Assembly: GCA_903911905.1 (NCBI GenBank)
Contig: CAIWFK010000336.1
Coordinates: 1 to 32,843 of the forward strand
Source: an uncultured Myxococcales bacterium
GTDB lineage: Bacteria > Myxococcota > Myxococcia > Myxococcales > Myxococcaceae
Direction of reading: 5' to 3'
DNA length: 32,843 nucleotides
Below are positions 14,161 to 30,952 of this stretch, one piece after another (position 1 is the first letter of the stretch; every line of letters starts with the position of its first letter). The translations under genes were made by a program, and so were the position numbers. Under the pieces are notes generated by a model. It made no database searches and was not told the DNA's origin. It saw only the letters and a program-made list of their open reading frames with translations.

Positions 14161-17100
14161 ATGCCGCTCAGGATGGGCGGGGCACCGGTATCAGCCAACT
14201 TCGGGTTTCTGGCCAAGCACGACCCGCTGCTGGTCTCTCTCGGCGCGCTGGCTGAGCGGTACTTCGCCGATGACCCGGTCGGCGCGCTCACCAAATTGCG
14301 CCTGTTCGCCGAGGTCCTGGCCCAGCACGTCGCCGCCAACCTTGGCCTGCCCCGCATTCCGGAAGAGCAGCAAGTCGACCTCCTTCAACGCCTGCGAAGC
14401 AATGGCTCGTTGACGCCCGAGGTGCACGAGCTCTTCGGAATCATTCGCCGGGCCGGCAACGCGGCAGTTCACCGTCACGCCGGTACGCATGGTGAGGCGC
14501 TTCACTGCCTGAAGCTCGCGCGACAGCTCGCCATTTGGTTCCACCGAGGCTTCGGCGGGTCGGCGGCAGTCTCGTTCAACCCCGGTCCGTTCTTGCCGCC
14601 GGCGGACCCGGCCACCGCCACCAAGGAGCTGGCAGCCGAGCTCGAGCGACTTCGTCAGCAACTCGACGACGTGAAGCTCTCAGCCGAGGCGACGAAGGCC
14701 CAGGCCGAGGAACAGGCCAAGCGAGCGCTCGACGCCGAGGCGCGCGCGAAGCAAGAAGCTGAGGAACGCTCCATCTGGGAGCAGCTGGCCGCCGAGGCGC
14801 AGGCGAAGCTATCTGCCGCACTCGAGGTCGCGGGCGCCAAGGCCGAGCAGGCGAAGCCCGAACAGCTCAAGCTCCTGACGGCGCAGATGGTCGAGGCCAG
14901 TGGCGAGCTCGACATCGACGAGGCCGACACCCGCATCATCATCGACGAGCAGTTGCGTCAGGCCGGTTGGGAAGTCGACTCGCAGGTCTTGCGGTACGAG
15001 TCCGGCACGCGCCCGGTCGCCGGGAAGAACATGGCCATCGCCGAATGGCCCACGAAGAGCGGCCCCGCGGACTACGTGCTCTTCATCGGGCTCGTCGTGG
15101 TTGGCGTGGTGGAGGCCAAGCGCAAGCGCAAGGACGTGAGCGGGTCGCTTCAGCAGGCGAAGCGCTACTCCGAGGGCTTCGGCCTTCACGGCGACGAGGC
15201 GTTCGCTGACGGCAGCCCCTGGGGCAAGTACCGGGTGCCGTTCCTTTTCGCGACCAACGGCCGGCCCTACTTCCGGCAGCTCGAGACGAAGTCGGGCATT
15301 TGGTTCCAGGACATTCGCCGCAACACGAACCTGCCGCGGCCCTTGGTGGGGTGGCCGACACCCGCGGCCCTGCGGGAAGACCTCAAGCGGGACATCGAAC
15401 TCGCCAACAAGAAGCTGAAGGAAGAGCCGCCGGAGAACCTGCCAGGGCTGCGGCCGTACCAGTTGAAGGCCATTCGCGCCGTCGAAGAAGCCATCTCAGG
15501 GCAGAACCGCACGGCCCTGGTGGCCATGGCGACCGGCACAGGGAAGACCCGTACCTTCATCGGGCTCATCTACCGTCTGGTGAAGTCGGGTCGATTCCGC
15601 CGCGTCTTGTTCCTGGTCGACCGAAACGCGCTGGGCGAGCAGGCCTCGACCGCCTTCAAAACCGAGTTCGTCGATGGCTCGCAGTCCTTCAGTTCGATTT
15701 TCAACATCAAAGAACTCGCCGACCTCAAGCCCGACCCCGAGACTCGGCTGCACTTCGCCACCGTCCAGGCGGTCGCCAAGCGGCTCTTTCGCGACGGTGA
15801 CGGCGTACCCGAGCTTCAAGTCAGCGACTACGACTGCGTCGTCATCGACGAATGCCACCGCGGTTACACGCTCGACAAGGAGATGTCGGACAGCGAGCTG
15901 ACCTTCCGCAGCCAGGACGACTACCTCTCGGTCTACCGGCGGGTCCTCGACTACTTCGACGCGGTGAAGATTGGGCTCACGGCGACGCCGGCCCTGCACA
16001 CCACCGAAATCTTCGGGCGCCCGGTCTACACGTACAGCTACCGCGAGGCCGTCATCGACGGCTTCCTGGTGGACCATGAGCCTCCCTTCGCGATTGCCAC
16101 CAAGCTCTCAACTGACGGCATTCACTTCGTCGCGGGCGAGTGGGTGTCGGCCATCACGGTCGGAAACCAGCCGGCCGACTACGTGACGGTACCCGACGAC
16201 GTCGACTTCGAGGTCGAGGCCTTCAATCGCCAGGTCGTGACCGAGAACTTCAGCCGGGTGGTCTGCGAGGAGCTTGCCGAGCAAATCGACCCGACTCTGC
16301 CGGGGAAGACGCTCATCTTCTGTGCCACCGACGCGCACGCGAACACCGTGGTCCAGCTGTTGAGCGAGGCCTTCTCGAAGCGGTACGCCGGCATCGACGC
16401 CGACTCGGTGAAGAAAATCACCGGCGCTAGCGACAAGCCGCTCGAGCTCATCCGCCATTTCAAGAACGAGAAGCTGCCGTCAGTCGCGGTGACGGTCGAC
16501 CTGCTGAGCACCGGCATCGACGTGCCGTCCATCTGTAACCTGGTGTTCCTGCGACGCGTGCGCAGCCGAATCCTGTACGAGCAGATGCTCGGCCGGGCCA
16601 CGCGCCTGTGGAGCGACGGCGAGTTCACCAAGGAGTCGTTCCGCATCTTCGACGCCGTGCAGCTCTACGCGGCCCTCGACCCCGTCTGCTCGATGAAGCC
16701 CGTGGTGGTAAACCCCACCATCACCTTCGAGCAACTCGTTGAAGAGCTCGAGCGCCTGAAAGACGGCGAAGAGCGCACGATGGTCGCCGAGCAGCTTCTC
16801 GCCAAGCTGCAGCGGAAGAAGCGCGCCCTCAACCGCCCGGCCAACGCCGAGGTGTTCGAGGCGGCTGCCGGCGCTTCGTTCGCCGAGACGATGGAGGCGC
16901 TGGCGTCGTCCAGCCCTGCGGAACTCGCAGTGTGGCTGAAGGCTCATGGCGCGCTCGCCCCGCTGCTCGACAAGCTCACGGCCGCTGCGACCCCGGTCTA
17001 CATCTCGAACCACCCCGATGAACTGGTAGGAGTGACGCAGGGCTTCGGCGAGGGCCACGAGAAGCCTGAGGACTACCTTGAGGCGTTCGGTCGCTTCATA

Positions 17101-17565
17101 AAGGAGAACGTCAACCAGGTTGAGGCCTTGAAGCTGGTGACGCAGCGGCCGAGTGCCCTGACGCGAGCCGAGTTGCGCCGGCTCAAACTTCAGCTGGACG
17201 AGGCGGGGTACCCCGAGTCGAAGCTGCGAGCCGCCTACAGCAAGGCCAAGAACGCTGACATCGCCGCGTCGGTGATGGGCTTCATCCGGCAGCGGGCGCT
17301 CGGCGAGCCGCTGCTGCCGTACGCGCAGCGAGTCGACACCGCACTTCAGCGCCTCTTGGCGTCACGGCCCTGGACGCGGCCGCAGCAGGACTGGCTCAAG
17401 CGCATCGCGAAGGCCATCACCGAGAACGAGGTGGTCGACAGGCCGCTCTTTGACGAGGGCGCGTTCCAGGCCCATGGCGGCTTCGCCCGCATCGACAAGG
17501 TTTTCGACGGGAAGCTCGGCGAGACCATCAGCGAGCTGCAGGACGCAGTGTGGAAGACGGGGTGA
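14161..17565 (+). CDS. hsdR: Type I restriction endonuclease subunit R
   Basis: This 1134-residue translocase and nuclease subunit cuts unmethylated DNA after ATP-driven translocation. Seen in order: an N-terminal helical DUF4145-like region (about 10-130), an Ala/Glu-rich coiled coil (155-250), the HSDR_N nuclease core with Asp304 and Glu318-Ala-Lys320 (VVEAKRKRK), then an SF2 helicase with Walker A MATGTGKT at 456-463, DECH at 563-566 and LTATPA, and a motif VI-like EQMLGRATRLW. The C-terminal 300 residues match the EcoEI-type R domain. The coiled-coil insertion and DUF4145 part place it in the EcoEI-like HsdR group. The start has no clear ribosome binding site; ATG at 14173 is an alternative. 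It precedes the unknown gene at 17588 by 22 bp. Confidence 0.93.
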   Translation: MPLRMGGAPVSANFGFLAKHDPLLVSLGALAERYFADDPVGALTKLRLFAEVLAQHVAANLGLPRIPEEQQVDLLQRLRSNGSLTPEVHELFGIIRRAGNAAVHRHAGTHGEALHCLKLARQLAIWFHRGFGGSAAVSFNPGPFLPPADPATATKELAAELERLRQQLDDVKLSAEATKAQAEEQAKRALDAEARAKQEAEERSIWEQLAAEAQAKLSAALEVAGAKAEQAKPEQLKLLTAQMVEASGELDIDEADTRIIIDEQLRQAGWEVDSQVLRYESGTRPVAGKNMAIAEWPTKSGPADYVLFIGLVVVGVVEAKRKRKDVSGSLQQAKRYSEGFGLHGDEAFADGSPWGKYRVPFLFATNGRPYFRQLETKSGIWFQDIRRNTNLPRPLVGWPTPAALREDLKRDIELANKKLKEEPPENLPGLRPYQLKAIRAVEEAISGQNRTALVAMATGTGKTRTFIGLIYRLVKSGRFRRVLFLVDRNALGEQASTAFKTEFVDGSQSFSSIFNIKELADLKPDPETRLHFATVQAVAKRLFRDGDGVPELQVSDYDCVVIDECHRGYTLDKEMSDSELTFRSQDDYLSVYRRVLDYFDAVKIGLTATPALHTTEIFGRPVYTYSYREAVIDGFLVDHEPPFAIATKLSTDGIHFVAGEWVSAITVGNQPADYVTVPDDVDFEVEAFNRQVVTENFSRVVCEELAEQIDPTLPGKTLIFCATDAHANTVVQLLSEAFSKRYAGIDADSVKKITGASDKPLELIRHFKNEKLPSVAVTVDLLSTGIDVPSICNLVFLRRVRSRILYEQMLGRATRLWSDGEFTKESFRIFDAVQLYAALDPVCSMKPVVVNPTITFEQLVEELERLKDGEERTMVAEQLLAKLQRKKRALNRPANAEVFEAAAGASFAETMEALASSSPAELAVWLKAHGALAPLLDKLTAAATPVYISNHPDELVGVTQGFGEGHEKPEDYLEAFGRFIKENVNQVEALKLVTQRPSALTRAELRRLKLQLDEAGYPESKLRAAYSKAKNADIAASVMGFIRQRALGEPLLPYAQRVDTALQRLLASRPWTRPQQDWLKRIAKAITENEVVDRPLFDEGAFQAHGGFARIDKVFDGKLGETISELQDAVWKTG

Positions 17566-17587
17566 CATCGTCCATGAAAGAACCTGA

Positions 17588-18343
17588 ATGGTTGCGATTC
17601 CAGATCTGTTCCGCGGCGACTCTTTGCCCTCGGTGGTCTTGGCTGCAAACGCTGCGAGCCGCGGACGAACCTTTGCTGAGCACTACTCGACTGACGGGTT
17701 GATGGCGAAGTTTGGCGATGGGGGTCGGGGGGCGTGGCTCAAGTGGCCGTTGCAACTACAGGTTGCGACCCACGTCGGGTATCGCCAGAGCGAGGACGGC
17801 GAGGTGGCGTTCGCCTACCGCAGCCCCTTCATCTCGTTTAGCGACGACAGGAAGGCGGCTTGGCACTTCCTTGACCGCACTGGTGAAAAGACGTTCACGG
17901 ACTGCGCCCTTGCCGATGCCACACATTTCATGTGGCGAATGGCGGGACTGACCGCGGTCGAGATTGGAGTAGGGCATTTCGCAATCGAGTTTCGGGCGTC
18001 CACGGCCAACGTCGACCACTTTCTGCAGGCAGGCGTCGCCGAGTTTCTTGTGGGCGACTACTCGAACCTCAAGGACACCCTCTCTCAGAGTTTCACGCAC
18101 CTCCACGTCCAAGCTGACGACTCACTGCACACCGCTCAGCTGATCCACGTTCCTAGGTATCTGGCGGCAGTGACTGAATCGTCTATTCCTGATGACCTGC
18201 TCGCGCGAGCCCGAGGATTTGGGGCGAAGTGGTCCGAGTGGCTTGTCCTCCCCACGGACGTAGAAGCTGGGCTCGGGCGCTCTTCGCGCTTGCCCCTCAA
18301 CGCCCATCTTGACCTCTGTGTGTTCGCACGGGAGGCACGATAG
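17588..18343 (+). CDS. Unknown protein between hsdR and hsdM, possible ADP-ribosyltransferase-like fold
   Basis: No family is recognised with confidence. The gene starts 22 bp after hsdR and ends 72 bp before hsdM, on the same strand, so it is probably co-transcribed with them. A feature of note is SPFISFSDDRKAAWHFLDR (about residues 79-97), preceded by HVGYR: a strand with Arg, then S-P-F-I-S-(F/T)-S and an A..F helix is a pattern seen in ADP-ribosyltransferase-fold proteins. No clear catalytic Glu was pinned down. Other possibilities are an anti-restriction regulator or a defence effector guarded by the restriction complex. There is no signal peptide or membrane segment. The region is slightly less GC-rich than hsdR. 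Confidence 0.4.
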   Translation: MVAIPDLFRGDSLPSVVLAANAASRGRTFAEHYSTDGLMAKFGDGGRGAWLKWPLQLQVATHVGYRQSEDGEVAFAYRSPFISFSDDRKAAWHFLDRTGEKTFTDCALADATHFMWRMAGLTAVEIGVGHFAIEFRASTANVDHFLQAGVAEFLVGDYSNLKDTLSQSFTHLHVQADDSLHTAQLIHVPRYLAAVTESSIPDDLLARARGFGAKWSEWLVLPTDVEAGLGRSSRLPLNAHLDLCVFAREAR

Positions 18344-18415
18344 AGGCGTCGCGAACGGTCGCTTTACTAGGGAAATTCGCCTTCCACCCTTACCTCCGAC
18401 GGTATGTTGCGGTCG

Positions 18416-19831
18416 ATGGCAACGAGCACCACCGACATCGTCTCGAAGCTCTGGAACCTCTGCACGCTGCTGCGTGAAGACGGGGTCAGCTACCTCCAGT
18501 ACGTCACAGAGCTCACGTACTTGCTCTTTCTCAAGATGCTGAAGGAGCAGGGACGGGAGGGGCTGTTGGCGAAGGGCTGCCGTTGGGGGGAGCTGACGAG
18601 CCGGTCCGGCATCGACCAGCTCGACCGATACCGCGAGATGCTTCTCGCCCTCGGCAAGTCGCAGAATCGAACCGTTCGGCAGATCTACGAAAACGCCGGT
18701 TCCACCATCAAACAACCGAAGAATCTGGCGATCCTCGTCGAGGCGTTTGAGTCCCTTGACTGGTTTTCAAACGAGCGCGAACACCTTGGCGACCTGTACG
18801 AGGGGCTCTTGGAGCGAACCGCGACGGAGAAGCGGGCGGGCGCTGGTCAGTACTTCACGCCTCGGCCACTGGTCGTGGCAATGGTCGCGTGCATCCGGCC
18901 ACAAGCGGGCGAATTGGTACAGGACCCTGCGGCAGGAACGGGCGGATTCCTGATTGAGGCAGACCGCTTTGTGAAGGCGCGGACCGACAACCTCTTCGAC
19001 CTTAAGTCGGAACAACAAGGATTCCAGAGGCAGCACGCGTTCTACGGAATGGAACTTGTTGATGAAACGCGTCGCCTGGCGCTGATGAACTTACTCCTGC
19101 ACGATATCGAAGGTGACGTTCGCGCGGGTGACACGCTGTCTCCACTGGGCGCACAACTACCCCAAGCGGACGTCATTCTGACGAACCCGCCCTTCGGCAC
19201 GAAGGCCGGCGGCGGCAAGCCGTCACGCGACGACTTCACGTTTCCCACGAGTAACAAACAGCTCGCCTTTACCGAGCACGTCTACCGCGGGCTCAAGCCG
19301 GGTGGCCGCGCAGCTGTCGTGGTGCCTGACAACGTGCTCTTCGAGGACAACGTTGGCCGCGAGATTCGCACCGACCTCATGGACAAGTGTGACCTCCACA
19401 CGGTGCTGCGGCTGCCCACGGGCATCTTCTACGCCCCGGGGGTGAAGACCAATGTGCTGTTCTTCACGCGAGGTGCGACCGACAAGGGCAACACGAAGGC
19501 GACGTGGTTCTTCGACATGCGCGCGAACATGCCTGCCTTCGGTAAACGCACGCCCTTCACCCATGAGCACTTCGCCGACTTCTTGAAGGCGTTCGGCGAC
19601 GACGGGTACGGCAAAGCGAAGCGCAAGGACCAGGGCGAGGAAGGCCGGTTCCGCAGGTTCACCCGCGAAGCCATCAAGGAACGGAACGACAACCTCGACG
19701 TCGTCTGGCTGAAGGACGACAGCCATACTGACGCCGAGGACCTGCCGGAGCCCGAGGTGGTGCTGGCGCAGATTCGCGAGAAGCTCGAGGGCGCGCTGGC
19801 GGCGGTGGCGGAGCTTGAGGGGGGGCTGTGA
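18416..19831 (+). CDS. hsdM: Type I restriction-modification methyltransferase subunit M
   Basis: This 471-residue N6-adenine methyltransferase subunit modifies the host sites and, with HsdS, forms the methylase core. Seen: an N-terminal HsdM_N helical domain (TTDIVSKLWNLC..., then YLQYVTELTYLLFLKMLKEQ), the AGQYFTPRPLV segment, AdoMet-binding DPAAGTGGFL at Asp170, and the catalytic TNPPFG with Asn257. The C-terminal end has the usual charged tail. The ATG at 18416 fits HsdM better than that at 18404; neither has a strong ribosome binding site. Its stop overlaps the GTG start of hsdS, so the M and S subunits are translationally coupled. Confidence 0.95.
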   Translation: MATSTTDIVSKLWNLCTLLREDGVSYLQYVTELTYLLFLKMLKEQGREGLLAKGCRWGELTSRSGIDQLDRYREMLLALGKSQNRTVRQIYENAGSTIKQPKNLAILVEAFESLDWFSNEREHLGDLYEGLLERTATEKRAGAGQYFTPRPLVVAMVACIRPQAGELVQDPAAGTGGFLIEADRFVKARTDNLFDLKSEQQGFQRQHAFYGMELVDETRRLALMNLLLHDIEGDVRAGDTLSPLGAQLPQADVILTNPPFGTKAGGGKPSRDDFTFPTSNKQLAFTEHVYRGLKPGGRAAVVVPDNVLFEDNVGREIRTDLMDKCDLHTVLRLPTGIFYAPGVKTNVLFFTRGATDKGNTKATWFFDMRANMPAFGKRTPFTHEHFADFLKAFGDDGYGKAKRKDQGEEGRFRRFTREAIKERNDNLDVVWLKDDSHTDAEDLPEPEVVLAQIREKLEGALAAVAELEGGL

Positions 19832-21141
19832 GCGCCTTGCCACCTGGTTGGCGGGAGGTCGAGCTTCAGTCGGTGGTCGAGGTGTGTGACTCGCTCCGCG
19901 AGCCTGTGAACGCGGAGGCCAGAGCGAAGCGTTTAGGGCCCTTCCCCTATTACGGTGCCAACGGTCAGGCTGGCACCATCGACGAGTTCAGGTACGACGG
20001 TGAATACGTTCTGGTAGCGGAGGACGGGGGCTACTTCGACCAGCCGTGGCGTGGAGTCGCGTATCGTGTCACTGGTCGCTTCTGGGTGAACAACCACGCG
20101 CACGTCCTGCGGGCCGGAACCGATGTCCTCGCTCGGTTTCTTGAGCTTCAACTGAACACGCTGGACTGGATGAAGTACGTCAGCGGGACAACGCGCCTGA
20201 AGCTGACACAAGCCGCGATGAACCGCATCGTGCTGCGCCTTCCGCCCCTCGACGTCCAGCGACGCATCGTTGCCAAGCTCGACGACCTGCTTGCCCAGAG
20301 TCGCGCGGCGCGCGAGCACCTGGAGGCCGTGCCCGACCTGGTTGAGAAGTACCGGCAGTCCGTGCTGGCGGCGGCTTGTTCAGGCACGCTGACTGCGGAG
20401 TGGCGTGCCAGGCACGGCCGGTCATTGTCTGGTGGTGACCTGTCGGTCGAGTTGGCCCGCGAGCGCACGGAAGCTCGCCGGCGTGCTGCAGTTGGGCCAA
20501 GCGACGAGTTTCAGTTCCAACTCCCGACCGGGTGGTCCTCAATAAGCCTCGACGGTCTCACGCGACATATGACCAGCGGGTCTCGCGCTTGGAGCGCCTA
20601 CTACGACGAGCACGGCTATGGCACGTTCGTCATGGCGCAGAATGTTGGCCCCATGCGGTTCGACATGACGCACCGGCAGGGGGTTGCGCCCCCAGCTGAG
20701 GATCCGGAACTTGAGCGTACCCGTATGCAACGGCAGGACCTGCTGGTCACAATCGTCGGGGCGAACACCGGCGACGTTTGTCGCGTGGACAAGGACGTGA
20801 AGGACCACTTCGTCTGCCAGAGCGTTGCCATGATCCGGTTGCTGCGGTCTGAAATGGCAGACTACGTAGAGCTGTGGCTTAACTCCTCCGCGCACGGGGC
20901 CGCTCAGTTCAGGAAGTGGTCCTACGGAGAAGGGCGACCCCACCTTAGCTTCGACCAACTCCGGGCCACGGTCGTCGGCCTGCCGCCGCTAGACGAGCAG
21001 CGAGAGATTGTAAGGGAGGTGCGTTCGCGACTGCACGCCATCGAATCCATGCGGCATGTCAGTGCCGCGTCAGTGTCGCTTCTTCCTGCGTTAGAGCGCG
21101 CACTTCTCGCCAAGGCGTTCAGCGGCGAGTTGGTCACCTGA
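19828..21141 (+). CDS. hsdS: Type I restriction-modification specificity subunit S
   Basis: This 437-residue subunit sets the DNA site recognised by the type I complex. It has two target-recognition domains: the first about residues 5-130 (PFPYYGANGQAGTIDEF, then GTTRLKLTQAAMNRI), the second about 225-390 (GEGRPHLSFDQLRAT near its end). Each is followed by a conserved LPPLD-Q helical spacer (LPPLDVQRRIVAKLDDLL and LPPLDEQREIVREV), which set the gap between half-sites. It starts at a GTG that overlaps the hsdM stop. The gene ends 12 bp before the convergent stop of a HEPN-like gene. It is full length, with no inverted repeats or partial hsdS copy nearby to suggest phase-variable shuffling. Confidence 0.95.
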   Translation: MSALPPGWREVELQSVVEVCDSLREPVNAEARAKRLGPFPYYGANGQAGTIDEFRYDGEYVLVAEDGGYFDQPWRGVAYRVTGRFWVNNHAHVLRAGTDVLARFLELQLNTLDWMKYVSGTTRLKLTQAAMNRIVLRLPPLDVQRRIVAKLDDLLAQSRAAREHLEAVPDLVEKYRQSVLAAACSGTLTAEWRARHGRSLSGGDLSVELARERTEARRRAAVGPSDEFQFQLPTGWSSISLDGLTRHMTSGSRAWSAYYDEHGYGTFVMAQNVGPMRFDMTHRQGVAPPAEDPELERTRMQRQDLLVTIVGANTGDVCRVDKDVKDHFVCQSVAMIRLLRSEMADYVELWLNSSAHGAAQFRKWSYGEGRPHLSFDQLRATVVGLPPLDEQREIVREVRSRLHAIESMRHVSAASVSLLPALERALLAKAFSGELVT

Positions 21142-24048: not shown

Positions 24049-24759
24049 ATGGCGCTAACGAACGACCTGCTTTCTTGTTGCGCGCAGTCAGTCGCCCGGG
24101 ATCTCTGGAATGCCGCCCAGAGAAACCAGCAGTGGTCGCAGCCATTTACTACCGCGTTTTCGATTCTGGTTGCCGCCGCAGTATCCAAGGAGCTGACTGC
24201 GAAACCTGTCATTGTCTATGCCGCGCCGCACTCTGGCCACACGACGGGGTTACTGAAGAAGCACATCTTTTCCAGCAAGAACTGGAGCGAGGTGCGTGCG
24301 TCTAGGAAGGGAGTTCGACACTTTCACTCGGAGTGGATGGTCGACATCACGTGTGTCGAGCCCGAAAGCAAAAAGAAGGAGACTCCGATTCTCGCGGTTG
24401 AAAGCGAGGCCTGTGTCAATCACGACACGAAGTACACCTTCGCGCAGACTGGATATGCCTGGGACTTCTGTAAGCTTGTGCACTTCAACTGCCCGCGACT
24501 GTTGTTTGTTGCAGCAGTGAACCGGTCGCAAAGTGACCGCCGGTCTCCAAGCCATCGTCGACTCGACGAGCTTGGCGAATCGCTAGAGGCTTGTCGGGCT
24601 GACTACGCTGGAGTCTTGGACAATCGTTCTGTGGGACTAATCTTGCTCCCTTCAACGTCCCGAGATGCTGCGTTTGGCCGGGTTGGCGTGTCCAATGGCG
24701 GGCGCCCTTTCGTTTTCGAGTCCTTGCCGAGTCTCTGGAGGGGGGCGGAGGGGGCATGA
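24049..24759 (+). CDS. Hypothetical protein, possible PD-(D/E)XK-like nuclease (236 aa)
   Basis: No firm family. The ATG at 24049 has GAGG six bases upstream and is preferred to longer upstream frames. Residues about 100-160 read SEWMVDITCVEPESKKK, then PILAVESEA and WDFCKLVHFNCPRLLFVAAV: an Asp-strand, then an E-S-E strand followed by (D/E)F.KL and a hydrophobic strand is an arrangement seen in some PD-(D/E)XK-fold restriction-like proteins; the Lys of ExK appears replaced by Glu. Activity is therefore uncertain. The gene points against its neighbours and its last 157 bp overlap the convergent zinc-ribbon gene. Confidence 0.5.
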   Translation: MALTNDLLSCCAQSVARDLWNAAQRNQQWSQPFTTAFSILVAAAVSKELTAKPVIVYAAPHSGHTTGLLKKHIFSSKNWSEVRASRKGVRHFHSEWMVDITCVEPESKKKETPILAVESEACVNHDTKYTFAQTGYAWDFCKLVHFNCPRLLFVAAVNRSQSDRRSPSHRRLDELGESLEACRADYAGVLDNRSVGLILLPSTSRDAAFGRVGVSNGGRPFVFESLPSLWRGAEGA

Positions 24760-25106
24760 CTCTGCGCTACGCATGCTGTGAGTTTCCGCGAGGGTGACCG
24801 AAGCAGCCGGTTTCGATCACGCCCGACCCAATGGCCACACTCAGCACAGGTCCAGCCGAGTTCAGCGGCGTAGCCGAGTGCCGTTACAGCTCGGCCGCAG
24901 GCGCACAGCAGGTGTCGCTTGGTCCCGCCGAACGCTGTCTTGCAGGGAAGCTGCAGAATCGTGACGTCGAACGTCGTCCCGTCGGGAGCGGCGAGCTGCA
25001 CGCGCGCGACACCTCGCCACGCGGGGCCGAAGGCCTGGCGCAGCTGCTTGATGGAAACGCGCGCGGTCAGCTCGTCCCGGTAAACGCGGGTTCGCTTGCA
25101 GGGCAT
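24603..25106 (-). CDS. Zinc-ribbon protein (168 aa)
   Basis: The ATG at 25106 lies 4 bp after the stop of the upstream gene. The protein starts MPCKRTRVYRDEL, has a beta-rich middle (RVQLAAPDGTTFDVTILQLP) and a zinc-ribbon-like CACGRAVTALGYAAELG...CAEC arrangement (CxC then CxxC), then a basic tail with low-complexity composition. The frame continues 157 bp into the oppositely oriented gene at 24049-24759, so the C-terminal 50 residues may be only a read-through. It is likely a small DNA- or RNA-binding protein of the replication module; the exact function is unknown. Confidence 0.5.
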   Translation of the reverse strand: MPCKRTRVYRDELTARVSIKQLRQAFGPAWRGVARVQLAAPDGTTFDVTILQLPCKTAFGGTKRHLLCACGRAVTALGYAAELGWTCAECGHWVGRDRNRLLRSPSRKLTACVAQSHAPSAPLQRLGKDSKTKGRPPLDTPTRPNAASRDVEGSKISPTERLSKTPA

Positions 25107-25110
25107 GGTC

Positions 25111-25584
25111 CTACTTCCCGCCGGTGATGTTGACGTTGTTGGCGATGACCCCAATCTGCACAGGAGTCTTCTTGTTCCCGGCGAAGTCGGCGCGCAGTTC
25201 GGCGGCAAGCAGCTGCATCCGTTGGGTGCTGCCGGAAAGAGCGCGGTCCAGCATCTTCACAGCGTCGTTGTCGCGGCGTGCCACGGCCTCTACGAGAAGA
25301 GCCGTCAGTTGCGCGGTAACCGCCTCCTGAAGGGAGAACGCCTTCGCCAAAGAACGTCTCCTGACTTCACCCAGTTCGTCGGCGGCCAGCGCAGCAGCTC
25401 GGCTGGAAACGAAGCTCGCTGTTTCGCCGGGACGACCCTTCACCAGCGATTCAACCGCCAGCTTTTCAACAGCGGTCAGCCGTAGACCAGGGACCGTCGA
25501 AACGGCGCGTGCGTCGACCGGCGTAGCGACGGGGTCGTCTTCTTCGGGGACCGGCGGACCGGCGGGGTGTCGGATGATTTCCAT
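25111..25584 (-). CDS. Hypothetical helical protein (157 aa)
   Basis: No family is recognised. The ATG at 25584 follows a weak GAGG 8 bases upstream. After a Pro/Asp-rich start (PPVPEEDDPVATPVDARAV), residues 45-135 are helical (LTAVEKLAVESLVKGRPGE, RRRSLAKAFSLQEAVTAQL), and the final residues PVQIGVIANNVNITGGK form a short beta tail like those seen at the end of some phage DNA-binding proteins. It follows the helicase gene and the large hairpin at 25639-25728, and precedes the zinc-ribbon gene by 4 bp, so it may be expressed with the replication genes. Confidence 0.5.
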   Translation of the reverse strand: MEIIRHPAGPPVPEEDDPVATPVDARAVSTVPGLRLTAVEKLAVESLVKGRPGETASFVSSRAAALAADELGEVRRRSLAKAFSLQEAVTAQLTALLVEAVARRDNDAVKMLDRALSGSTQRMQLLAAELRADFAGNKKTPVQIGVIANNVNITGGK

Positions 25585-25638
25585 AGGGGAAGCCTCTTGT
25601 GTGCACGGCCGTCTTTTCGCGAGGCCCAAAGACGGGCG

Positions 25639-25728
25639 CGCACACGTGGGAGAAAAAAGAAAAAGAGTGTGGCGGTGGGAGAGGGGAGGGAGGGACTGCG
25701 TTTTTTTTTTTTTTTCTACACGTGTGTG
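25639..25728 (+). other. Long hairpin with T15 run and G-quadruplex motif in its loop
   Basis: The outer stem pairs 25639-25648 with 25719-25728 (10 bp, core CACACGTG/CACGTGTG, one G-T). After a small internal loop, 25651-25667 (AGAAAAAAGAAAAAGAG) pairs with 25701-25717 (T15 then CT): 17 pairs with three G-T. The 33-base loop (25668-25700) holds GGGAGAGGGGAGGGAGGG at 25677-25694, four G-runs with loops of 3, 1 and 1. The G-T pairs are wobbles in plus-strand RNA but become C-A mismatches in minus-strand RNA. It lies in the 186-bp gap between the helicase stop and the next leftward gene. Function is unknown: origin, terminator or RNA element. Confidence 0.85.
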
Positions 25729-25770
25729 GGTACCGCCCGGTCTCAGTTCCCGGTCCGACAGACGGCGTGC

Positions 25771-27372
25771 TCACCTCGGCAGGGTGTAGGCCCGGAAAGC
25801 GTTCTTCGGCTCCATCGGGTACATCCAGATGAGTGTGTCCTTGGTACGCGTGAGCGCGACGTAGAGCAGCCGTGCTTCGTCGGCGGCGACCTTGGGGTCG
25901 GCAGCCGCGGCGTCGTAGCTGGTCTTCGACCGGTCCGGGACGATGGCGACGACGTCTGCTTCCGCACCCTTGGCTCCGTGGATGGTGCTCAAGATGACCT
26001 GGCCGTTCTGTGCTCCGGTCCAGCGCCGCGTGACGAGCAACGTCTCGCGCGCAGTCAGCTTGCCGAGGACCGAGGGCGTGCCTGCTTTGATCTGCGTGAA
26101 GACGGGGTGCTGCCCCAGTAGCCGCTCGAGATCGGCGAGCGTGTAGTGCTGGCTGCCCTCGACCGCGGCGAGCCGCCCACGGACCGGCGCATCATCGGCC
26201 AGGGCTCGACGCTCAAAGAGTGTGTTCAGCACCCTTCCCACCACCGTGCCGCCTTCGCGAAGGTTTTTGGTCATCGCAGCAAGAGCCAACAGCGGCGCGT
26301 CGGGTCGGCTCTCGGTGTAGAGCACCCCCGCGAGGTCAAGCTCCTTCTTGATGGGAAGAAGCGCCCATGCGTCGCGTGCGAGGACAAGGTTCGTCTTCCC
26401 CACGAGCAGCTTCGCCAGCTGAGGCGCCCGAATTCCGGTGAGCACGCGCCCCTGTACGGGGGTCGGGAGGTACGGCGTGCTGATGCGCCCCGGCACCCCC
26501 TGAATTGCCTTCAGGGCGAGGGCGTGTACCAAGGAGGGAACCCGATGGGACTGCGCGAGCACCTCACCCTGGTGCTCCCGGAAGCGCTCGATAAGCCACT
26601 GGGGGTCGGCGCCGGCGAAGCCGTAAATCGACTGGTCGTCGTCGCCCGCGACGTAGACCTTGCGGCACTGCGTCGCCCAAGCGTCGACCAACTGCGACAT
26701 CGTGGAGTTCAGGTCCTGGCACTCGTCCACAATCAGCACGTCGACGTCGGGATGTAGTTGCTTCTTGAGGGCTATCGCCCGCAGGTCCTCGAAGGTGATG
26801 AGGCCGTGCTCCTGGCGGTACTTCTCGTAGGCGTCGTAGTACCGGTCCAGACGGCCGGCATCGAGCCGCCGCGCCACGGCAGGACTCAGGCCGGTAAGCA
26901 TCTGCTGCTTGGTGAGGCCTGCGACGCGAGCGCGGTCGATTGCCGACGAGTAGTGTTTGGCGATTTCAGGGGCGATGCCCGGGAAATTGGCGTTGCGGAA
27001 CTCAATCTGGCGCTTCTCGGTGAAGAGCTTCGTGCTGTCGGCGCGCGTCAAGCCGAGCGAAATTGAGTCGAGCGTTCGCACGTAGCGGAGGTCGTCGCTG
27101 CTGAGGCCCGGGTTGCTCTCGCACAGCTTACGAATAGCTTCATCGCGTGCAGCGTTCGTGAAGGTCACCAGGGCAATCCGGTCGGGCGAGTAGGTCTGGG
27201 CCTCCAACTCGAACTTCGCGACCAGCGTGGTGGTCTTCCCGGTTCCAGGAGGGCCCTTGATGACGTGCCAGCGTTTTGCCTCCCGTTGAGCCCCGTCGAG
27301 CACCGAGCCGACTTCACCTACGTCCGGGGCGTCGAAGGGGTTGATGTCGTAGAAGAAGTCGAGCGCGTTCAT
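25771..27372 (-). CDS. UvrD/Rep-like superfamily 1 helicase
   Basis: This 533-residue DNA helicase has the full SF1 set: Walker A GPPGTGKTTT at 40-49, motif Ia VTFTNAARDEA, motif II DECQD at 216-220, motif III GDDDQSIYGFAG at 243-254, motif V near STIHGAKGAEADVV, and motif VI ARLLYVALTRTKD near residue 500. It is shorter than UvrD (about 720 residues) and lacks long inserts, as in phage and plasmid helicases. Its ATG overlaps the stop of the upstream gene by ATGA. Together with the PrimPol gene two steps upstream it should supply unwinding and priming for replication of the element. A large hairpin lies just downstream. Confidence 0.92.
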   Translation of the reverse strand: MNALDFFYDINPFDAPDVGEVGSVLDGAQREAKRWHVIKGPPGTGKTTTLVAKFELEAQTYSPDRIALVTFTNAARDEAIRKLCESNPGLSSDDLRYVRTLDSISLGLTRADSTKLFTEKRQIEFRNANFPGIAPEIAKHYSSAIDRARVAGLTKQQMLTGLSPAVARRLDAGRLDRYYDAYEKYRQEHGLITFEDLRAIALKKQLHPDVDVLIVDECQDLNSTMSQLVDAWATQCRKVYVAGDDDQSIYGFAGADPQWLIERFREHQGEVLAQSHRVPSLVHALALKAIQGVPGRISTPYLPTPVQGRVLTGIRAPQLAKLLVGKTNLVLARDAWALLPIKKELDLAGVLYTESRPDAPLLALAAMTKNLREGGTVVGRVLNTLFERRALADDAPVRGRLAAVEGSQHYTLADLERLLGQHPVFTQIKAGTPSVLGKLTARETLLVTRRWTGAQNGQVILSTIHGAKGAEADVVAIVPDRSKTSYDAAAADPKVAADEARLLYVALTRTKDTLIWMYPMEPKNAFRAYTLPR

Positions 27373-28568
27373 GATCGCACCTCGAGCGAGTTCGCGGCGT
27401 CTACGGTCGGCGATTCGCTACCTTCGCTGGCGCTCGCGGCAGTCGTCGAAGCCGCGGCGGGCGTTTGCATCGAGGTGGAGTCGCTCGCCGCTTCGCTGGA
27501 CTGAACCGACTCACTCCAAGCCTTGATGTTCTTCGAGGGCGCGACTTCTACGGAAGCATGAAACGTGCAGCCCTGTTTCTCGAGTACGCGAACCACGTCG
27601 CGCGGCTGCACTTTCGGGAGCTTCGCGCGCACGCGCTGCGTCACCGCGCCTTCGGTGAAGTATCGGACTTTGGCCTTTCCGTCGGAGAAGGCCATGTCGT
27701 CGAGGAGCGCCTCCATCGACTTCCCCTGGTGGATTTCGAACCGTGCTGTAGTGACTTCGCGCTGCAGGACAGCTTCGTCAGTGGCATCGCCCTTGAGCAC
27801 GGTCACTTCCGCCGACTTGAGCCAGTAGCCGACGAGCGCGTCCCAGAGAGAAGTCGCCTTTGGTGCCGGAAGCTGCGGGGGCTCGTGCAGGTGGCCCAGG
27901 TACAGCGCCTTGAACTCCTCGGGGCCCTTGCTCAAGCTCTTCGCTGAGAGCGCGAAGGTCTTTCCCCTGATGGTGAACTCGTAGCGCGATTCGTCCGACT
28001 CGAAAACTCGAACCCGCTCTACCTTGAAGTCGATGCAGTCGAGTGCCGACTCGAGGATTTCGTCGCTCGTGGCCTGCTTATCGGCATTCACTGCCGCGAG
28101 CTTTTGGGCAGCGGCTTGAGCGAGGCCGCGTGCGTAGGGCTCGCCCTGGCGCGCGGCGTGGCCATCGGGCCGGCACATTACCGCCGCGGCGAGTTCACCC
28201 TCGTCGGTTACGTCGCACTTCATCACCAACCGCTCGACGTACGCCTCGTCGTAGGCGGCGGGGCTGGGGAGGGGCTGTCCGTTCTTCTTCCCCACGCCAG
28301 TGAACAGCCCCTCGAGCTGCTTATGGGCCGAGTGCCGAGCGACGATTCGCGGACTCAGCGCGGGCACGAGGGGCTGCGGCAGCGGCGCAACAGGGCCGGT
28401 CGCTGGCGGCACCGCCGGAGCATTGGGCGGCGGGCCGGCGGGCCCAGGCTCCAACGCGCAGGTTGTCGTGGGCGTGGGGGCGTCGCCAGGGGTTTCGATG
28501 GTGACGTCGCTCTGCTGGTCGGTCGGTGCGGCAGGTTCAGGCGTCGGTGCGGTGCTGCAGTCAGTCAT
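27369..28568 (-). CDS. Replication-module accessory protein, unknown (399 aa)
   Basis: No family is recognised. The ATG at 28568 has GGAGA seven bases upstream. Residues 1-80 are a disordered Pro/Thr/Ala-rich tail (PTPEPAAPTDQQSD onwards). The middle has AAYDEAYVERLVMKCDVTDEG, a beta pair around YEFTIRGKTFALSA, and TSLWDALVGYWLKSAEVTVLK. Residues 285-345 (AKVRYFTEGAVTQRVRAKLP, then DVVRVLEKQGCTF) could be a winged-helix DNA-binding domain like those at the C-terminus of phage primase-helicases. The last 50 residues are Ser/Ala-rich. It sits between the primase and the helicase genes, overlapping the latter by ATGA, so a linker or loader in replication is plausible. Confidence 0.55.
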   Translation of the reverse strand: MTDCSTAPTPEPAAPTDQQSDVTIETPGDAPTPTTTCALEPGPAGPPPNAPAVPPATGPVAPLPQPLVPALSPRIVARHSAHKQLEGLFTGVGKKNGQPLPSPAAYDEAYVERLVMKCDVTDEGELAAAVMCRPDGHAARQGEPYARGLAQAAAQKLAAVNADKQATSDEILESALDCIDFKVERVRVFESDESRYEFTIRGKTFALSAKSLSKGPEEFKALYLGHLHEPPQLPAPKATSLWDALVGYWLKSAEVTVLKGDATDEAVLQREVTTARFEIHQGKSMEALLDDMAFSDGKAKVRYFTEGAVTQRVRAKLPKVQPRDVVRVLEKQGCTFHASVEVAPSKNIKAWSESVQSSEAASDSTSMQTPAAASTTAASASEGSESPTVDAANSLEVRS

Positions 28569-28605: not shown

Positions 28606-29823
28606 TCAGCGCTCATCGAGGTAGCCCTCGTCGAGCAGGAACCGACGTGGCGTGACCTGGCGCGTCCTGGCCTCGACCGAGAGTTGCCCGGGGTGCTCCG
28701 CGAGGTAGTTGAGGGCCGCTTCGACGTAGCGTCGCGACCAGGAGTGCTGCACGGCCAGGTGGTACGCGGCGCTGACGGGGTTGACGTAGCCGCCACGCAC
28801 ATGGAGAGGGACCTCGTCGCCGAGGGTCTCGTACTTCGTGGGTCCGCGGTCGAGGACCTTGCGCCACTCGAGTTCGGCCTTGCGACGCCCGTAGGACGCC
28901 AGCGGGTTCCACGCGGAGTGCCAGGCCTTGCCCGCGAGCTCGCAGAGGTCTTCGTGGCCGCCGACCGCCGCTGCGAGGTTGCTGCCGAAGAGGTGCCAGC
29001 AGTCCCGGCTCGCGCCGTCCCCGACCTCCAACAGCCACCCAACGAAGGGGAGGTCGAGCAGCTCCATGGTCTGGGCCTGCGCGGCCTCGTGCGGCGTGGT
29101 GCGTGACCCACGTGACGGTCGCTTGCGGGTCGCCTCGATGAGCGTGCCGGCCTTCTCGACTTCCTCCATGAACCACGCGGGCAGTTCGGGAAGGGTCGGG
29201 TACTGTGACAGCAACGACCCGTCCTGGAACCGGTAGCACCGCTTGGCCTTGTGGACCGTGGGCGGCATCACGACCATCCCGCCGTTGCCGCGAGTGTCGA
29301 TACCGCTCATCGGTCCAAGGACGCCCGTCTTGCTGGCGATGCCAGGGCCCGAGTGACGAAAGTAGAGCTGAAGCCCGCCGCCGCCGGTCAGCACAACGGG
29401 GCCGGGGCTCGGCTTGCCGTACTTCTCCATCAGCCCCTTCCAGTTGCCCAATCCGTCCTTGCCCTCGCCAGGCTTGTTGTCGACGTCGATGACGACGATG
29501 CCGCTGCGTGCGCCGGTCGGCATGCCGATGCCGTGAGCGCTGCGCAGGAGGCCGAAGCGTGCGCCATTCCCCCACCACTCATCACAGAGGCGCGGGTCGG
29601 CGAGAGCGTCCTCGGAGCCCCACGACAACCACGTGTGTTTCCCGGTCGCCGGGCAATTGGGGCCCAGGCGACACGAACAGCTGCCGTCTGCCCGAATGCC
29701 GTACAGCGGGAAGACCGGTATTCCGCGGCCCGTGTAGCCTCGAGCGAACTCGAGATTCACGTTCCGCTCGCTGGTCGTGATGGTTGGCGCGCCTTGGGGC
29801 GCAGGTGTATATTCGTCGTGCAC
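28606..29823 (-). CDS. Bifunctional primase/polymerase (PrimPol)
   Basis: The GTG at 29823 follows AAGGAGA by seven bases. The 405-residue protein has the Prim-Pol (archaeo-eukaryotic primase) domain at about 20-225: GIPVFPLYG, the Cys/His-rich CSCRLGPNCPATGKH insert usual in this family, catalytic VIDVDN with Asp113 and Asp115, TGGGGLQLYF, and SGIDTRGNGGMVVMPP. The usual His of the GGxHxYF motif is replaced by Gln152 here. The C-terminal half is helical and unassigned; there is no helicase domain fused, the helicase being a separate gene downstream. The enzyme should prime and perhaps copy the element's DNA. A hairpin lies directly upstream of its ribosome binding site. Confidence 0.9.
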   Translation of the reverse strand: MHDEYTPAPQGAPTITTSERNVNLEFARGYTGRGIPVFPLYGIRADGSCSCRLGPNCPATGKHTWLSWGSEDALADPRLCDEWWGNGARFGLLRSAHGIGMPTGARSGIVVIDVDNKPGEGKDGLGNWKGLMEKYGKPSPGPVVLTGGGGLQLYFRHSGPGIASKTGVLGPMSGIDTRGNGGMVVMPPTVHKAKRCYRFQDGSLLSQYPTLPELPAWFMEEVEKAGTLIEATRKRPSRGSRTTPHEAAQAQTMELLDLPFVGWLLEVGDGASRDCWHLFGSNLAAAVGGHEDLCELAGKAWHSAWNPLASYGRRKAELEWRKVLDRGPTKYETLGDEVPLHVRGGYVNPVSAAYHLAVQHSWSRRYVEAALNYLAEHPGQLSVEARTRQVTPRRFLLDEGYLDER

Positions 29824-29838
29824 TTTGAAGTCTCCTTG

Positions 29839-29874
29839 CCCACGACCGCCTGACCGCGGCCGTGGGTTTGTTTT
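29839..29874 (+). terminator. Rho-independent-type hairpin facing the plus strand
   Basis: CCCACGACCGC (29839-29849) pairs with GCGGCCGTGGG (29856-29866) with one A-C mismatch and a 6-base loop; TTTGTTTT follows on the plus strand, giving a textbook intrinsic terminator for rightward RNA. All genes here are leftward, so it would block antisense transcription into the RHH gene region, or act in the leftward mRNA as a hairpin whose base touches the primase ribosome binding site (29831-29837). Confidence 0.6.
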
Positions 29875-29879
29875 GGGTG

Positions 29880-30062
29880 TCAGTGGCGGTTGTCGAGCTC
29901 GCGCTCGAGGTACTGCTCCAGCGCTTCGCGGATGAGCTCAGCCATCAACGGCCGGCGCCCGAGGGATCGTGCGCGCATGCCGCGAAGTTCGTCGAGCTCG
30001 GCGAAGAGCTCGAGCGGCGCGCGAACGGTGGTGGTGTGAAACGTTGCCTGGGACTTGCTCAT
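29880..30062 (-). CDS. Ribbon-helix-helix (CopG/Arc-like) DNA-binding protein (60 aa)
   Basis: The ATG at 30062 follows GGAGG by eight bases. The protein has the RHH layout: a beta strand (ATFHTTTVRAPLELF), helix A (LFAELDELRGM), a turn with Arg/Ser, and helix B (RPLMAELIREALEQYLERELD). Such proteins bind DNA as dimers and often control copy number, partition or the operon they belong to. It lies directly upstream of the primase gene and could set its expression. A relatively AT-rich 107-bp spacer precedes it and may hold its promoter and operator. A longer frame upstream of the ATG has no domain and is ignored. Confidence 0.75.
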   Translation of the reverse strand: MSKSQATFHTTTVRAPLELFAELDELRGMRARSLGRRPLMAELIREALEQYLERELDNRH

Positions 30063-30169
30063 GAATAATTCCTCCGAAATTCGACCGTAAATCCATTCAA
30101 AATGTAGGTCAGGGCCGTCCGAGCGCGGGGCGGGTGTCTTGCCCCTGCGTCGGACCGCCCTCGCGACGG

Positions 30170-30952
30170 TCACACGCTCAGCGTCGACGCCTCGGTGTCG
30201 CTGGTCGTTGCGGTCTCGGCCTCGTCGTCCTCGATCCCGAGGTCCCGGAGCAAGTTCGTTGCGCCGGCGCAACTGCCGTCGAGCTTGGCGCTCACCACGT
30301 CGAGCTGGCGCCGCAGTTTCATGCGGAGCGGCTGCGCCTCGCTCGCGCTGTCGTCGATACCGGCGCGTTGTGCCGTATCAAGATCAAGAGGCTCGAGGAG
30401 GTCGTCGAGTGCCGAGATTGCCCGCTTCAGGGTGCGAACCAGGGCGTCGCTGGTGCTCCCGGCCTGGGGGAACCGCTTCGCCTTCTTCTCTCGGACTGGC
30501 TGGTGCTCGCGGACGTGTGCACGCAGCGCCTTCGTCGACAGCTTCTGGCTGGTCGCCGTATCCAGGAGCTCGTCGCGTTTGTCGGCCTGCTTGACTTTGG
30601 TGACTTCCGCGAGGTGGCCGAACGTGTTGCCCTTCGCGATGAGCTCGTCGAACTCCGCCTCGGGCCAGGCCTTCGCGACGCGCAGGCACTTATACAAGGT
30701 GGCCTTGGAGCACTTGGTCTCCTTGGCGATACGCTTCACGTCGCTCTCGTCGTGGTGCTTCAAGGCGACGCCGATTTGATACCTGGTCGTGGCGAGGTCG
30801 GTCTGTCCGCGTTGATGCAGGCTTCGCACCGTCTCGATGGTCTTCTCGATGTCGGGCTGGGCTTCGGTCGGCTGGTCGGTCGCAACGGGCAGGGAGGAGT
30901 TGTGGTCGTGAGGGAGCGTTTCGGCTTCGGCCGAGGTGGTGCTGAGGTCCAT
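30170..30952 (-). CDS. KorB/ParB central-domain-like HTH protein (260 aa)
   Basis: The ATG at 30952 follows GGAGA by seven bases. The protein resembles the HTH part of ParB/KorB proteins, without an N-terminal ParB nuclease domain. Seen: an acidic Ser/Thr-rich start, a helical block with VKRIAKETKCSKATLYKCLR (a clear HTH), AKGNTFGHLAEVTKVKQADK and LSTKALRAHVREHQ, matching the layout of the protein encoded at 21799-22500. A long Asp/Glu/Ala-rich helical tail follows. It probably binds element DNA as a regulator or in partition or plasmid-like maintenance. No ParA ATPase gene is in the window. It lies about 110 bp from genes on both sides, so it may have its own promoter. Confidence 0.6.
   Translation of the reverse strand: MDLSTTSAEAETLPHDHNSSLPVATDQPTEAQPDIEKTIETVRSLHQRGQTDLATTRYQIGVALKHHDESDVKRIAKETKCSKATLYKCLRVAKAWPEAEFDELIAKGNTFGHLAEVTKVKQADKRDELLDTATSQKLSTKALRAHVREHQPVREKKAKRFPQAGSTSDALVRTLKRAISALDDLLEPLDLDTAQRAGIDDSASEAQPLRMKLRRQLDVVSAKLDGSCAGATNLLRDLGIEDDEAETATTSDTEASTLSV

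Follow-up and report, generated by a model that had tools for sequence, protein, structure and literature searches.

A gap between a helicase gene and the small gene behind it, in what appears to be the replication operon of a mobile element, is read here, tentatively and from its sequence and predicted folds, as a control region between two cistrons of the minus-strand operon. It may act as RNA, through termination or attenuation of the Rho type. Under that Rho-type reading, the G-quadruplex (G4) motif on the plus strand of the gap is mainly the mirror image of C-rich mRNA. If this holds, the operon would separate expression of the helicase from that of the small genes downstream. A caution for genome scans would follow as well: a G4 motif set in a hairpin in GC-rich DNA may be the reverse complement of a C-rich Rho site of the ordinary kind in the strand that is transcribed.

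Gene order around the gap

The window, that is, the whole stretch of 32,843 nt that was analysed, is contig C336 of a 7.57-Mb (7,570,351-base) assembly in 907 contigs. An integrase gene lies near one of its ends (1111-2337). The operon and the gap within it are laid out as follows.

28606 to 29823, minus strand: Prim-Pol primase/polymerase gene, a member of the operon (Pfam Prim-Pol, 3.8e-24)
27369 to about 28604, minus strand: mid gene, between the Prim-Pol and helicase genes
25771 to 27372, minus strand: UvrD/Rep-type SF1 helicase gene (Pfam UvrD-helicase, 1.3e-24; PHROG 1967 DNA helicase, 1.4e-60)
25585 to 25770, minus strand: intercistronic gap of 186 nt, between the helicase stop codon (25771) and the small1 ATG (25584); the homologous gap in the relative G056 is long too
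25111 to 25584, minus strand: small1, 157 aa, with a Shine-Dalgarno-like AAGAGG directly after hairpin B
24603 to 25106, minus strand: small2, 167 aa, with CxC/CxxC-like cysteines, syntenic in G056

The mid gene and the helicase gene overlap by 4 bases and small1 and small2 are 4 nt apart; in an operon otherwise so tightly packed, the 186 nt between helicase and small1 stand out. The first-pass annotation had located its structure between the helicase gene and the next gene of a primase/helicase module, and the gene coordinates and the Pfam and PHROG matches agree with this placement. Hairpin A, the G4 motif, the T15 run and hairpin B all lie inside the helicase-small1 gap. Elsewhere in the window, the plus strand carries a complete type I restriction-modification set (HsdR-, HsdM- and HsdS-like; 14161-21141), with an extra gene of no known kind between HsdR and HsdM (17588-18343).

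Hairpin A, the G4 motif and the T run

The plus strand of the gap contains the following features.

25639 to 25728, plus strand: hairpin A, with a 10-bp outer stem and an A/G:T inner stem; its loop is G-rich in the plus sense and C-rich in the minus sense
25677 to 25694, plus strand: G4 motif GGGAGAGGGGAGGGAGGG, which reads CCCUCCCUCCCCUCUCCC in the mRNA and is unpaired in the minus-strand fold
25701 to 25715, plus strand: T15 (A15 in the mRNA), the sole A or T run of at least 11 in the genome

Hairpin A reads directly as GCGCACACGTGGGAGAAAAAAGAAAAAGAGTGTGGCGGTGGGAGAGGGGAGGGAGGGACTGCG-T15-CTACACGTGTGTGG. The hairpin claimed for this place was recovered in the predicted plus-strand fold, in which a 10-bp outer stem and a 16- to 17-bp A/G:T inner stem enclose the G-rich loop, and the G4 motif was found in that loop as described. 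The T run had been called striking, and we agree: T15 is not a chance occurrence, because it is the one A or T run in the 7,570,351-base genome that reaches 11 or more. The G4 motif alone is not rare, because 25 such motifs were counted in 142 kb of own-genome contigs, or about one per 6 kb (a background rate from 20 contigs of about 142 kb, 3 of them without readable sequence); two lie in the window. With the G4 option allowed, the energy model lowers the plus-strand fold from −33.6 to −56.1 kcal/mol, a drop of 22 kcal/mol.

Compared with shuffled sequences, the 131-nt fold gave z-scores of −3.44 on the plus strand and −3.43 on the minus strand, and 1 of 200 shuffles was equally good on each. 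The two strands do equally well, and therefore the fold shows no preference for the plus strand, although the inner-stem wobbles had been said to work only there. The three wobbles arise because T15 faces the A/G tract GAGAAAAAAGAAAAAGAG, and they carry no strand information. On the minus strand an outer 8-bp stem of hairpin A is kept, with pair probabilities of 0.94-1.0. Ranked by energy among real 90-nt windows of the contig, the 90-nt element came 753rd of 2,184 on the plus strand and 2,130th of 2,184 on the minus strand. The fold of hairpin A is unusual for its composition, not for its stability, and its raw energy is unremarkable in this GC-rich window. A long inverted repeat spanning the whole gap was also considered as a single cruciform and set aside; it beats shuffles, but its outer part was matched in 80 of 8,256 real windows (1%).

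A C-rich stretch and a second hairpin in the mRNA

Read in the minus sense, which is that of the mRNA, the gap and its upstream border contain three more features.

25634 to 25711, minus strand: rut-like stretch of 78 nt, with 34 C, 8 G (C/G 4.25) and regularly spaced C
25599 to 25645, minus strand: hairpin B, with arms at 25599-25616 and 25628-25645, an 11-nt loop and 16 of 18 positions paired (17 in the mRNA strand when G-U is counted)
25760 to 25774, minus strand: X1, GTGAGCACGCCGTCT, which spans the end of the helicase gene at its stop codon; it is similar to the 5' arm of hairpin B and is able to base-pair with the 3' arm (25599-25616)

Rut sites are described as C-rich, G-poor and unstructured, with YC repeats (PMC9160355), and the RhoTermPredict rule looks for 78 nt with C/G above 1 and a C every 11-13 nt, followed by a hairpin downstream (PMC6407284). 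In the transcribed strand, 25634-25711 shows this C/G ratio and C spacing over 78 nt, and hairpin B provides the downstream hairpin or pause site. Rut prediction being of modest accuracy, the stretch has the top rut-like score of the window on both strands (4.25; the next is 2.92) and ranks second in about 169 kb of own sequence, where one sampled own-genome stretch is higher (6.0). The gap stretch on the minus strand also has the window's highest C-over-G at both 40 and 60 nt. The rut-like stretch follows the helicase stop codon; in the predicted mRNA fold its C tract is unpaired and its flanks are partly paired. A Rho gene is present in the assembly. The terminator scan revealed no intrinsic terminator (a GC-rich short-loop stem with a U run) on either strand of the gap, and no U run follows hairpin B. 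Rfam returned no match above its gathering score in the window, only chance-level miRNA and lncRNA matches, and a tRNA scan found nothing.

Hairpin B, which the first-pass annotation had missed, adjoins the Shine-Dalgarno-like AAGAGG of small1 and has a predicted energy of −29.3 kcal/mol on the minus (mRNA) strand. The pair that is imperfect reads G-U in the mRNA but A-C in the plus strand, a difference in favour of the mRNA strand. Arms of this kind (18 nt with no more than 2 mismatches and a loop of 3-20) occur at one other locus in 169 kb. Hairpins A and B compete, because seven bases (25639-25645) are common to both. The 3' arm of hairpin B (X3) has two predicted partners, with energies of −23.4 kcal/mol for X1:X3 and −28.9 kcal/mol for X2:X3. 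Without constraint the predicted mRNA fold pairs X1 with X3, and when the 14 nt after the stop codon are masked, in imitation of a terminating ribosome, hairpin B is predicted in its place, a switch calculated from the energies of a single sequence without covariation.

From these features we infer how the gap might work. Past the helicase stop codon, mRNA free of ribosomes would expose the C-rich, G-poor stretch 25634-25711 to Rho loading, and hairpin B downstream would pause or end transcription ahead of small1 and small2. Alternatively, hairpin B, placed directly before the Shine-Dalgarno sequence, could set the translation of both small genes. Hairpin A, hairpin B and X1 would vie for the same bases, and ribosome release at the helicase stop codon could shift the fold from one pairing to another. 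The first-pass annotation had offered an origin, a transcription barrier or a regulatory RNA; the last two are the likeliest of these roles, on the mRNA (minus) strand, opposite to the one it had named. Against the Rho-type reading stand the pairing of part of the rut-like stretch in the predicted folds and the homologous gap in G056, which shares no conserved sequence or structure with this one.

Relatives of the operon and of small1

Starting from the helicase, relatives were sought across the order (145 genomes) and the phylum (195 genomes), and also in IMG/VR, GTDB contigs, phages and plasmids. The order and phylum searches gave three matches, one of them the window itself, which leaves two other genomes of the 195. 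One of these, G056 (JACRCT010000256.1; L003, L031, L116), is distant (helicase identity 34%) and has the same order of mid gene, helicase, small1 and small2 with the same 4-nt overlap. Its helicase-small1 gap, about 356 nt long, has no T run, no G4 motif and no sequence similarity to the window gap. The mRNA strand of this gap is not rich in C (12 vs 26) and is more structured than shuffles (z −2.24 vs −0.86). Several TGTGACC/GGTCACA-like words in the G056 gap (L003, 1180-1310) may be binding sites. In the second genome, G163, a different gene follows the helicase after a 0.2-kb gap without any of the features. The middle protein of the G163 cassette (L196, 4005-5867, plus strand) is seemingly fused to a primase-like N-terminal part, and this fusion suggests that the mid gene of the window may encode the C-terminal part of a split primase.

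The small1 proteins form an unnamed family with no Pfam, NCBIfam or PHROG match (L199-L206, L208-L218). When relatives of small1 were sought in the 195 genomes of the phylum, they were found in 12, this one included, mostly apart from such a helicase. T/A runs and G-runs were absent from all 11 upstream regions examined. Several of these relatives have AT-rich bases such as TCCTAATATTCTGGG just before the start codon, as if their transcripts were leaderless. A short frame with a GDI..EDLGE-like end is seemingly conserved ahead of several small1 relatives (L209-L211 and L213-L215), at a distance of about 200-300 nt.

At 34 loci, comprising 33 viral or other genome contigs and L116, no T/A run of at least 10 was found downstream of the helicase. 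A G4 motif within 600 nt after the helicase occurs only at L116, where the 360 nt leading up to the small gene show none. The viral contigs scanned contain no exact copy of the left arm of hairpin A, and a mid-protein profile found no match in viral contigs either. We rejected a conserved element, having found no relative with a T/A run of at least 10 or a G4 motif in the gap. For a conserved structured RNA, no gap homologue with compensatory changes was found, the syntenic G056 gap being unrelated. Conserved arms with compensatory changes around a kept G4 loop, proposed earlier as a check, were found in none of the relatives, and G056, albeit distant, is one syntenic case of what had been named as refutation, a homologous place without the hairpin or the G-runs. 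As far as these sequences go, a long non-coding gap is common to the two syntenic loci, whereas the element itself is not.

Alternative explanations

The main rival of the Rho-type reading is a neutral low-complexity spacer, in which slippage would have made the polypurine tract and the T run in a non-coding gap, their pairing would simply reflect the match of A/G with T, and the hairpin and G4 motif would be functionless. This we consider possible but on the unlikely side. It agrees with the lack of conservation in any relative, an inner stem of hairpin A that is wholly A/G against T, the commonness of G4 motifs in this genome and the recurrence of the long outer inverted repeat in real windows. 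Slippage should, however, have produced more than a single T15 in 7.57 Mb, and hairpin B is GC-rich, not of low complexity, and rare; several rare features, moreover, fall within 186 nt of an otherwise tight operon. It is distinctly unlikely that the gap is the promoter region of small1 and small2, with AT-rich CTCTTTTTCTTTTTTCTC behind the G4/C tract in the minus sense. In GC-rich bacteria, many promoters combine an AT-rich element with a G4 motif ahead of it, on one strand or the other, and the gap shows the arrangement sought by G4PromFinder (an AT-rich 25-mer and, at most 50 bp upstream of it, a G4 in either orientation), but this rule is low in specificity, with 40.8% and 8.9% in the tests published with it (PMC5801747). 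Relatives of small1 elsewhere stand alone with AT-rich bases beside the start codon; in the window, however, no sigma-70-like site was found in 24400-27500, and the long pyrimidine runs lack a −10 form.

The presence of the gap inside a Prim-Pol/UvrD cassette and its DNA fold (z −3.1 on the plus strand, −3.6 on the minus strand) would suit a site where replication of the mobile element starts, either an origin or a single-strand initiation site, at which the A/T tract melts and the hairpin serves as primase/helicase site. We nevertheless regard an origin, as suggested earlier, as improbable. The gap has no iterons, its repeats being limited to one 8-mer pair, the suggested GC-skew check showed no turn, and its best 60 nt are 55% AT, below the 62% AT at 30053-30112. 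In the best described Prim-Pol/UvrD cassettes, those of pTN2-like Thermococcus plasmids, the predicted origin precedes the operon and does not follow the helicase (PMC3543421). An iteron-type plasmid or phage origin was rejected too, with no set of direct repeats beside an AT-rich region and no skew turn. A better candidate for an origin or promoter is 30053-30112, the AT maximum of the window, at the start of a ribbon-helix-helix gene (Pfam RHH_1; 29880-30062, minus strand) that separates the Prim-Pol gene from its next upstream neighbour; this small gene and the window's most AT-rich 60 nt both lie in 29824-30170, upstream of Prim-Pol. A plus-strand element, whose antisense transcript would form a G4 before U15 and terminate there, is very improbable: G4 and U15 do follow each other on one strand and the G4 option does stabilize the plus fold, but no plus-strand gene or promoter leads directly in, a simple terminator scan had no match there, and the arrangement is not conserved. 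We give still less credence to a bacterial counterpart of CSB II, in which a G4 (as RNA or RNA-DNA hybrid) in the hairpin A loop would stop a plus-strand transcript at U15 to prime replication via the element's own Prim-Pol/UvrD; nothing found favours such priming. Hardly credible at all is a T run produced by faulty assembly or sequencing, which the 907 contigs of a metagenome-like assembly and the uniqueness of the run might suggest, but the flanking helicase and small genes are intact and the opposite pairing tract is independent of the length of the T run.

Comparison with known systems

Mitochondrial CSB II combines a G4 with a T/A tract and ends transcription. The gap resembles it in that G-runs precede a T run on the same strand, close to a replication function, and differs in being bacterial, not conserved and without a feeding promoter, an RNA-DNA hybrid being hypothetical here. 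The pTN2-like cassettes of Thermococcus likewise place the Prim-Pol gene ahead of a gene for an SF1 helicase of the UvrD/Rep type, on a mobile element, whereas their predicted origin is upstream of the operon and a hairpin after the helicase is not mentioned in the portion of the account used (PMC3543421).

Like ribosome-controlled attenuators, in which hairpins are mutually exclusive, the gap has rival stretches for a single partner, and a stop codon lies at one of these. It differs from them in lacking a leader peptide, a U-tract terminator and covariation, and the gene upstream is a full helicase gene. With Rho-dependent terminators and their rut sites it shares 78 nt of C-rich, G-poor and presumably ribosome-free mRNA with regular C, a hairpin downstream and a Rho gene in the genome; the A15 run and the possible large hairpin around the C tract, both unusual, set it apart. 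As a Rho-type intercistronic region, the gap would add one more case to a known phenomenon.
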